Source of the DNA: Bdellovibrio bacteriovorus str. Tiberius | GTDB taxonomy: Bacteria; Bdellovibrionota; Bdellovibrionia; Bdellovibrionales; Bdellovibrionaceae | NCBI RefSeq assembly: GCF_000317895.1 | Contig: NC_019567.1 | Span: 248,001-312,000 of the forward strand | DNA: 64,000 bases | Direction: 5' to 3' | Shown: positions 22,424 through 25,595 of the stretch, piece by piece | How positions within the stretch are numbered: the stretch's first letter is position 1 | Layout of the letters: the number at the start of each line of letters is the position of its first letter | Made by a program: the position numbers and the translations under genes | The notes under the pieces: model-generated | Seen by the model: only the letters and a program-made list of their open reading frames with translations | Told to the model about the DNA's origin: nothing | The model's database searches: none

Positions 22424-22452
22424 ATAAAAAAAGCCCCGGTTGTCCGGGGCTT
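22424..22452 (-). terminator. Intrinsic terminator
   Basis: AAGCCCCGG at 22431-22439 and CCGGGGCTT at 22444-22452 form a 9-bp stem. On the minus strand the stem is followed by a T-run, ending transcription of the GcvH-like gene. It can also serve the convergent membrane-protein gene. Confidence 0.85.
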
Positions 22453-22463
22453 GATCTGAAGGA

Positions 22464-22871
22464 CTAGTCTTCGTCCTCATCTTCGTAATCGTCGTCTTCA
22501 TCATCATCATCGTCGTCGTCATCATCTTCGTCTTCATCGTCCTCATCAGCTTCTTCGTCAGCCTCGATGCGGATCAACCAGCCCTCTTCATAAGGGTCTT
22601 CCATGATCAAAGATGGATCGTCAATAACCTGAGAGTTCACTTCCACCACAGTTCCAGAAACCGGAGTGTAGATGTCCAGTGGCCCGTCGTCAGTTTCCAA
22701 AGTGCCGATCACAACATCTTCTTCGACCTGTTCATTTTCTGCAGGCAAGTCCACAGAAGAAATGGATTCGAAGTCTTCAAGACCGTCTTCGTTGATACCG
22801 ATAGTGATGAGTCCATCTTCCTTTCGGATCCACAGATAGCCCATAAAATTTCTTACGTCGTCAGATGCCAT
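22464..22871 (-). CDS. GcvH-like protein lacking the lipoyl lysine
   Basis: A 135-residue protein with the lipoyl-domain fold of glycine-cleavage H protein at residues 8-104: VDLPAENEQVEEDVVIGTLE, then LDIYTPVSGTVVEVNSQ, then EDPYEEGWLIRIE, aligning with E. coli GcvH without gaps. At the lipoylated Lys (ESVKA in E. coli) it has Asp62 in ETDDG. The only lysine in the whole protein is Lys17. So it cannot carry lipoate at that position. Residues 104-135 are almost entirely Asp and Glu. It is downstream of glnA on the same strand. It is therefore probably not the glycine-cleavage carrier. A scaffold or regulatory role is possible. Confidence 0.85.
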   Translation of the reverse strand: MASDDVRNFMGYLWIRKEDGLITIGINEDGLEDFESISSVDLPAENEQVEEDVVIGTLETDDGPLDIYTPVSGTVVEVNSQVIDDPSLIMEDPYEEGWLIRIEADEEADEDDEDEDDDDDDDDDEDDDYEDEDED

Positions 22872-22954: not shown

Positions 22955-24367
22955 TTAGCAATCGTAGTACAAATGGAACTCGTAGGGAACCGGTCTTTGC
23001 TGAACCGGACGCACTTCTTTGTCGATTTTGTACTGAACCCAGGTTTCGATCAAGTCATCCGTGAAAACATCGCCTTTTTTCAGGAAGCTGCAGTTTTTCA
23101 TCAGATGATTCAAGCTTTCTTCCAAAGTGCCCGGAACAGAAGGGATCGCCGCTGCTTCTTGAGGAGGCAGGCCGTAGATGTCCTTGTCCAGTGGATCACC
23201 TGGGTTGATCTTGTTGATGATACCGTCAAGACCCGCCATCAGGATGGCTGCTTCCGCCAGGTAAATGTTGGCAGATGGATCTGGAGTACGGAATTCAATG
23301 CGTTTTGCCTTCGGATTTGGACCGGAGTTCGGGATACGCATTGCCGCAGAACGGTTTTTGAAGCTGTAAGCCAGTTTTGTCGGAGCTTCAAAGCCCGGAA
23401 CCAGACGCTTGTAAGAGTTGGTTGTCGGGTTGATGATACCGCAAAGAGCCGGAGCGTGTTTCAAAACACCACCGATATAGTACAAAGCCATTTCAGAAAG
23501 GCCTGCGTATTTATTGCCAGCAAACAGGTTTTTTCCGTCTTTCCACAGGGACATATGGATGTGCATGCCGGAACCATTGTCGCCGAAGATCGGTTTTGGC
23601 ATGAAGGTCACAGTTTTACCGTAGCGTTTCGCCACGTTTTTCACGATGTATTTGAACCACATCATCTTGTCGCCCATATTCAGAGCGGTGTCGAAGCGGA
23701 AGTTGATCTCACCCTGGCTGGAGGCAACTTCGTGGTGATGACGTTCCACTTGCATGCCGCATCTTTCAAGCTCAAGGCAGATTTCGGTTCTTAGATCCTG
23801 CTGGGAATCTGTCGGCAGGGCCGGGAAGTAACCTTCTTTAGGGCGGATTTTGTAACCCAGGTTTTTACCGCCCTCGTCGCGTCCGGTGTTCCAGACAGCT
23901 TCGTCACTGTCGATCATATAGAAGGCAGAGTTGTTGGTTTGTTCGTAACGAATGTCATCAAAGATGAAGAACTCCGCTTCCGGACCGAAGTAAGCCGTGT
24001 CAGCAATACCGGTGGACTGCATGTAAGCAATGGCTTTTTTCACAACTTGGCGAGGGTCACGGTTGTAGGCTTGAAGTGTTTCAGGAAGGCAGACATCGCA
24101 GATCAAGGACAAGGTTGGAACCTGCATGAACGGGTCCATCATTGCAGTGGATGGATCCGGCATGATGATCATGTCTGACTCTTCGATGCCTTTCCAGCCG
24201 CGGATGGAGCTTCCGTCAAAGCCGTAGCCTTCTTCAAAAGCTTCAGCAGTCAGTTGGTGCAAAGGCACAGTCAGGTGCTGCCAGGTTCCGAGCATATCGC
24301 AGAACTTCAGATCCACCATCTTGGCGCCTTTTTCATTGGCGAACTTCAAAACATCTTTACCGGTCAT
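22955..24367 (-). CDS. glnA: Glutamine synthetase, type I
   Basis: The enzyme makes glutamine from glutamate, ammonia and ATP. At 470 residues it matches the GSI-beta subunit length. Visible motifs are the beta-Grasp entry [11 protein letters not shown], the metal-site EAEFF, the ATP-site [25 protein letters not shown] and the adenylylation loop [11 protein letters not shown] with Tyr398 at the regulated position, so control by GlnE-type adenylylation is likely. GGGAGG six bases before the ATG at 24367 sets the start; a longer in-frame reading would run into glnB. It is 34 bp downstream of glnB in one operon. Confidence 0.97.
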
Positions 24368-24401: not shown

Positions 24402-24740
<339 letters not shown>

Positions 24741-24992: not shown

Positions 24993-25595
24993 ATGACTAC
25001 AACGCGTTTTTTCGTTTACGGTTCTTTTTGCGAGGGCATGGTCCATTTCGGCAAGATCCAGAATTTCGTGGAATCTTCAGTATTTGCAAGGGTTAAGGCG
25101 ACAGCCTACCGCTTGAAAGTGGGTTTCCCGGCGATGGTCAAAGGGGGATCTGACCTGGTTCCGGGACAACTGATTGAGCTTAAGGGATCCGATCTATTGC
25201 TGAGCCTGATGGATGAATTCCACGGCTACAATCGCCTGGATCCGGACAAGAGCCTTTACTCCAGAGAAGAGATCGAAGTGCATCCGGAAGGCATGTCCGC
25301 TCCGGTGAAAGCTTGGATCTATTTCCTGAATCCTCTGAAGCTGCCGGTGAATGCCACCGTGATTTCAGGCGGCGACTGGAGACGCTCCATGGAAGAACAG
25401 CCGGTGCTGACTTCCAAACTGAGTGACAAGCAGGTCACTTATATTCAGAGACTGGGTCGCTCCTCTGGCCGGGAGATTGTACCGATTGATTTGACGCTCT
25501 ATCGCGAGCTGATGAATCTTGAGCTGATCGTCGATAAAGGTCGTCGACTGGCGCTGTCCAAACTGGGCCAAGAGGTTTACAGACACCTTGCTTAA
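24993..25595 (+). CDS. Gamma-glutamylcyclotransferase-like protein
   Basis: A 200-residue soluble protein. The start MTTTRFFVYGSFCEGMVHF contains the YGS/T substrate loop of the GGCT/AIG2 fold ('F.YGTL..G'). Further features are VPGQLIELKGSDLLLSLMDEFHGYNR, where the Asp/Glu of LMDEFHGY matches the conserved acidic catalytic region, and YSREEIEV. Family members remove 5-oxoproline from gamma-glutamyl peptides or amines; the substrate here is unknown. GGGGG precedes the ATG by 3-4 bases. The end overlaps trmL by 8 bp. Confidence 0.82.
   Translation: MTTTRFFVYGSFCEGMVHFGKIQNFVESSVFARVKATAYRLKVGFPAMVKGGSDLVPGQLIELKGSDLLLSLMDEFHGYNRLDPDKSLYSREEIEVHPEGMSAPVKAWIYFLNPLKLPVNATVISGGDWRRSMEEQPVLTSKLSDKQVTYIQRLGRSSGREIVPIDLTLYRELMNLELIVDKGRRLALSKLGQEVYRHLA

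Follow-up and report, generated by a model that had tools for sequence, protein, structure and literature searches.

The Locus and Its Genes

The window analyzed here, a 64,000-nt stretch of Bdellovibrio bacteriovorus str. Tiberius (NC_019567.1), harbors a short gene encoding a protein related to GcvH, the H protein of glycine cleavage. The conserved lipoyl lysine is the raison d'être of H proteins. It is missing from the present protein, which ends in a strongly acidic tail and which we named pseudo-GcvH. A first-pass annotation of this DNA had reported the open reading frame (ORF) without naming a strand; the ORF is real and lies on the minus strand (table 1). It starts with an ATG codon, preceded by the ribosome-binding-like site AAGGAAAG, and the N-terminus of the 135-aa product is MASDDVRNFMGYLW. 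The corresponding position in the genome of the strain is C1:270542-270832, beside glnA.

The position downstream of glnB and glnA given in the first-pass annotation is correct. Pseudo-gcvH is on the same strand as glnA, 83 nt away from it. No terminator was found on that strand between the two genes, and a terminator-like hairpin is located just 3′ of pseudo-gcvH; this hairpin is a consensus match, and the number of such matches found in the region is not above chance. From these features, glnB, glnA, and pseudo-gcvH look like one transcription unit. The divergent gene on the other side of glnB has no match in NCBIfam.

Table 1. Coordinates of the Features of the Pseudo-gcvH Locus in the Window
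Feature	Position	Strand	Remarks
Intrinsic-terminator-like hairpin ending glnB-glnA-pseudo-gcvH	22431..22452	minus	9 pairs, 7 of them G-C; T-rich tail
Pseudo-gcvH gene	22464..22871	minus	135 aa; GcvH fold, lipoyl lysine missing, acidic tail
Acidic tail	22467..22562	minus	Residues 104-135; predicted disordered
Folded GcvH-like domain	22563..22871	minus	Residues 1-103; Pfam GCV_H and AlphaFold2
Hairpin-tip codons	22680..22697	minus	Residues 59-64 (E-T-D-D-G-P); Asp62 in place of the lipoyl lysine
glnA, type I glutamine synthetase	22955..24367	minus	Upstream in the probable operon; TIGR00653, 657.6 bits, over cut-off
glnB, PII signalling protein	24402..24740	minus	Opens the probable operon; best PII model of NCBIfam at E = 3.3e-52, short of the cut-off of that model
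Divergent gene ("ggct")	24996..25595	plus	Gamma-glutamylcyclotransferase-like by our reading of the sequence

A GcvH Fold without the Lipoyl Lysine

The Pfam GCV_H domain (PF01597) matches residues 14–110 of pseudo-GcvH (E = 1.2e-23; 83.7 bits for a cut-off of 22.2). The alignment with T. maritima GcvH contains no gap across residues 12–112, in agreement with the gap-free lipoyl domain noted in the first-pass annotation. In an AlphaFold2 model of pseudo-GcvH built with 31 orthologues, residues 11–100 form a confident barrel, with block pLDDT means of about 89–94. Strands 54–60 and 63–68 form a hairpin with its tip at residues 61–62, and the tail is of low confidence and presumably disordered. 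The nearest solved structures retrieved by Foldseek are all H proteins, the closest ones at 1.1–1.7 Å (1.1 Å for the bovine H protein, 3klr). The predicted structure shows that pseudo-GcvH retains the barrel-sandwich fold and the hairpin.

At this hairpin, the segment ETDDGPLDIY of pseudo-GcvH aligns with ESVKAAADVY of T. maritima GcvH, placing Asp62 opposite the lipoyl lysine. The protein contains a single lysine, Lys17, as had been reported together with Asp62, and no cysteine. We inspected 63 pseudo-GcvH sequences. The residue at the lysine position is Asp in 39, Gln in 11, Glu in six, Ser in three, Asn in two, and Gly and Thr in one each; none of the 63 has a lysine anywhere at positions 59–64. 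A sequencing error at Asp62, which the first-pass annotation had named as a possible flaw, is ruled out, as 62 relatives also carry a residue other than lysine at this site.

A new conserved motif, E-T-D-x-G-P-L, occupies the hairpin tip in the pseudo-GcvH group. Gly63 is found in 61 of the 63 sequences, and Thr60, Pro64, Leu65, Asn27, and Glu45 in most of them. His12, Glu13, Ala30, Leu34, and Gly35, which are invariant in the GcvH set, are mostly replaced, as is Gln31, which is common in that set. Two other positions, counted from the lysine site, are retained: Glu at K−3 (50/63) and Gly at K+11 (63/63). We take these residues to be recognized by lipoylation enzymes, so that a contact between pseudo-GcvH and these enzymes is possible. 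Among members of the order outside the family, conservation of the tip is average (mean of 2.73 bits vs. an overall mean of 2.70), which weakens the case for a docking role of the tip.

The Acidic Tail

The first-pass annotation described the last ∼32 residues as nearly all acidic. Indeed, 29 of the 32 residues at positions 104–135 are Asp or Glu, for a net charge of −29. Among the ORFs of 60 aa or longer in the window, none of the others exceeds 27% acidic residues at its C-terminus. Nearly all tail codons are of the GAN type. Because they are a mixture of GAT, GAC, GAA, and GAG, selection seems to act on charge and not on a DNA repeat. All 32 Bdellovibrionaceae sequences carry such a tail, 24–42 residues long and 69–91% acidic, and its sequence itself is variable. 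Order-wide, 24 of the 63 sequences are devoid of it, though the domain is conserved; in some of these, the C-terminus is a short segment similar to the beginning of the GcvH C-terminal helix. Judging from the sequences, the tail is a later, lineage-specific addition, present throughout the family and missing in many relatives within the order. The ancestral function therefore does not need the tail.

Distribution, Phylogeny, and Selection

The spread of pseudo-GcvH was assessed by a genome-wide search with a profile built from the family. Every one of the 44 genomes searched within the strain's family encodes the protein, as do no fewer than 29 of the 41 genomes covering the remainder of the order and a single genome from another part of the class. 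This search returned no comparable score from beyond the class. One contig labelled Streptomyces griseus (L025) bears a locus from Bdellovibrionaceae, evidently through mislabelling or wrong binning of the public record. Further short GcvH-like paralogues occur in other classes of the phylum (L148–L150, family f19, and L154, family f16), and in three of them a lysine occurs within the unusual sequence EGEKQN.

In a phylogenetic tree of 48 rows, from which the lysine-site columns were left out, pseudo-GcvH forms one clade (support 99/99) apart from the lysine-bearing GcvH. A sister relation to its own true GcvH is absent from the best tree, though the AU test does not formally reject it (p-AU 0.12). 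At the nucleotide level, dN in the domain is 0.03–0.21 and dS is close to saturation at roughly 1.4 or above; by this estimate, the domain is under strong purifying selection. The 62 relatives and the low dN/dS rule out a pseudogene. These data show that the Bdellovibrionales possess, in pseudo-GcvH, an ancient GcvH paralogue that evolves on its own, lacks the lipoyl lysine, and coexists with true GcvH.

True GcvH and Lipoate Supply

The genome of the strain, a single contig that is 100% complete, contains three GCV_H genes over the cut-off, including pseudo-gcvH. The canonical gcvH adjoins gcvT (both within C1:658780-660241), with gcvP close by (669151-670422). The third gcvH (L002, C1:2627873-2628229) encodes a lysine-bearing protein much diverged from the canonical one (branch 0.7); it is directly followed by a gene for a Fur-like regulator and lies away from gcvT and gcvP. 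Pseudo-gcvH is not encoded with gcvT or gcvP either. The first-pass annotation had proposed checking for a separate true gcvH, and had considered that glycine cleavage might need pseudo-GcvH if there were no second GcvH. A true gcvH is present beside gcvT and a third, lysine-bearing copy exists in addition, which rules out pseudo-GcvH as the sole GcvH of the cell.

Ten genomes of the order encode true GcvH and P protein without pseudo-GcvH; glycine cleavage therefore does not require pseudo-GcvH. A genome of the family, G237 (94% complete), encodes pseudo-GcvH and has no P protein, T protein, true GcvH, LipA, or recognizable LplA. As it does have E2 proteins and yet misses LplA, an assembly gap is possible, and we attach little weight to this genome, which is at most suggestive of an independence of pseudo-GcvH from glycine cleavage.

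Concerning lipoate, the genome of the strain encodes the lipoate ligase LplA (L177, C1:2579777; 345 bits, over the cut-off) and a biotin ligase, and has no match for LipA. Elsewhere in the group, LipA does occur (G216 and G206). With LplA and no LipA match, the strain is a lipoate scavenger, presumably living on the lipoate of its prey. Published modelling of B. bacteriovorus describes it as a lipoate auxotroph that needs external lipoate (PMC7529429).

Gene Order and the Proposed Nitrogen Link

Across the order, secA-trmL-ggct is repeatedly found divergent from glnB-glnA-pseudo-gcvH. A glnA gene is adjacent to or near pseudo-gcvH at 12 of the 32 family loci and, for the remainder of the order and class, at 19 of 31. 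The glnB-glnA-pseudo-gcvH arrangement is thus old and recurrent, and some members of the group plausibly co-express pseudo-gcvH with glutamine synthetase (GS).

Among 31 searched genomes of the family, 20 encode type I GlnA nowhere and have only a GSIII-like protein, located elsewhere; 16 of these 20 are also without a PII protein. Many of the GlnA-less genomes are metagenome assemblies, in which single absences are weak, and the pattern over the 20 genomes matches the local gene order. The GSIII-like protein carried in place of type I GS by these 20 genomes (those of loci L011, L015, L016, L018–L024, L026, L027, L029–L034, L036, and L037) is about 750 aa long. In genomes lacking type I GlnA, pseudo-gcvH stays in place and is equally conserved; in most genomes without glnBA it neighbors the divergent ggct gene, usually facing it directly. 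As pseudo-gcvH is kept where GS and PII are absent, these proteins are not necessary partners. We rejected an obligate GS/PII partner on the basis of the 16 genomes that keep pseudo-gcvH and lack both, and consider type I GS or PII unlikely as obligatory partners. The tie to nitrogen status proposed in the first-pass annotation is not supported as a core function, and the link is probably incidental.

A Proposed Role for Pseudo-GcvH

The first-pass annotation viewed the protein as a lipoyl-domain scaffold unable to carry lipoate that may serve as a regulator, a decoy, or a binding platform. Apart from the nitrogen tie, the core of this view stands: the existence of an order-wide conserved paralogue with a new conserved hairpin motif makes it well supported that the scaffold has no means of carrying lipoate at the canonical position and is kept for a non-catalytic role. 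The sequence by itself fits a regulator, a decoy, and a platform alike. As to what this role is, we tentatively favor, at slightly below an even chance, a non-lipoylated H-protein paralogue acting as a small protein-binding adaptor, whose tip docks a partner and whose tail adds electrostatics. Pseudo-GcvH would have left lipoate chemistry to become a small, non-catalytic protein. The hairpin that formerly presented the lipoyl-lysine (E59-T60-D61-D62-G63-P64) would dock directly on a putative partner protein. In Bdellovibrionaceae, the disordered Asp/Glu tail may add electrostatic binding, by attraction or repulsion, or may tune the contact made by the tip.

The main rival to the adaptor is a dummy H protein, which would hold on to LplA or otherwise regulate lipoylation or glycine cleavage as a decoy. 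It would compete with apo-GcvH or E2 domains for LplA, or for the P and T proteins of the glycine cleavage system, and would regulate the use of scavenged lipoate. The fold is the same as that of GcvH complexed with LplA and LIAS in solved structures (3a7a and 8ugo), Glu K−3 and Gly K+11 are retained, and the presence of LplA with no LipA match, together with the auxotrophy deduced from modelling (PMC7529429), indicates that lipoate supply matters. However, the GcvH-invariant residues around the barrel are replaced, the ten genomes mentioned above combine GcvH and P protein without pseudo-GcvH, and G237, despite its possible assembly gap, keeps pseudo-GcvH with neither the P and T proteins nor true GcvH, LipA, or a recognizable LplA. 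We consider such a decoy rather unlikely. Pseudo-GcvH might instead be a regulatory subunit or adaptor of GS or PII whose gene, third in glnB-glnA-pseudo-gcvH, is expressed together with the other two. This would fit the operon-like order, for which numerous genomes from several families show gaps of about 5–130 nt, and the placement here of a terminator-like hairpin directly after pseudo-gcvH and none between it and glnA. It is made improbable by the conservation of pseudo-gcvH in the family genomes devoid of type I GlnA and, for most of them, of PII. Furthermore, conservation extends to the entire block secA-trmL-(glnBA)-pseudo-gcvH, so that the adjacency may be plain synteny.

Alternatively, the tail could be the working part of a general acidic chaperone or nucleic-acid mimic that binds basic proteins, ribosomal or DNA-binding, in which case the barrel would simply carry it. 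The maintenance of its acidic character in all family members in spite of a varying sequence, and the similar tails of lysine-less GcvH-like proteins of Desulfobacterota, are in line with this possibility, as is the tuning of eukaryotic DNA-binding proteins by acidic D/E repeats (PMC10250230). We give it little credence, since the ancestral function must lie outside the tail, given the tail-less sequences with a conserved domain. Finally, the nearly uniform GAN-type codons would allow lengthening of the tail by repeat slippage, as in a decaying gcvH duplicate with a repeat expansion at its end. Such a relic is scarcely credible given the retention in 44 of 44 genomes, a dN far below dS, residues invariant across families, and the mixed tail codons.

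If pseudo-GcvH is an adaptor or has another non-catalytic role, an old, universally retained lysine-less paralogue in a predatory lineage would represent a second, cofactor-free use of the lipoyl-domain scaffold. It is a genuine variation on a familiar fold, a cofactor domain without its cofactor site kept across a whole lineage. Family profiles show it only as GcvH, and genome-based models could consequently miscount it as a lipoate acceptor. As Bdellovibrio is genetically tractable, the function of pseudo-GcvH is open to direct testing.

Comparison with Known Systems

In the literature searched on Bdellovibrio GcvH, glycine cleavage, lipoate, glnA, or glnB, or on lysine-less GcvH, we found no description of pseudo-GcvH. 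It shares with GcvH (PF01597; TIGR00527) the fold, the hairpin length, and residues Pro70, Gly73, Asn79, Asp92, and Trp98. Unlike GcvH, it lacks the lipoyl lysine of the ES(V/T)KA tip, and its acidic tail stands where GcvH has a C-terminal helix. It scores below the cut-offs of the GcvH equivalog models (73.3 vs. 115.85 for TIGR00527; 80.4 vs. 117 for PRK01202). Two other sets of GcvH-related proteins are likewise filed apart from GcvH, TIGR03077 (not_gcvH) and NF045810 (GcvH_rel_desulf). Pseudo-GcvH belongs to neither, with 48.4 bits for a cut-off of 144.05 and 45.6 bits for a cut-off of 150, respectively.

LbpA of the sHdr sulfur-oxidation pathway is similarly a GcvH-like paralogue recruited to another task. 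In contrast to pseudo-GcvH, which has neither a lysine at the tip nor any cysteine, LbpA carries lipoate and has two conserved cysteines along with an invariant lysine (PMC6067878).

A further parallel comes from GcvH-like proteins of Desulfobacterota and related bacteria, identified in Candidatus Adiutrix, Desulfobacca, and Thermodesulfatator relatives (L038–L080). These proteins also lack the lipoyl lysine in its usual context and have an acidic C-terminus, but their hairpin sequence and neighborhoods differ from those of the Bdellovibrio protein. From their sequences, the neighboring genes look like lgt, fabD, or moaA, and we saw no neighbor shared between these loci and the pseudo-gcvH loci. 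The Desulfobacterota proteins are not sister to pseudo-GcvH in the tree, though the AU test does not reject a common origin (p-AU 0.24). It is an even call, in our opinion, whether pseudo-GcvH represents a new family of non-lipoylated H-protein-like adaptors, in which a swinging-arm domain would have been converted into a pure protein-interaction module with an acidic tail, with a comparable combination of lysine loss and acidic tail in Desulfobacterota.
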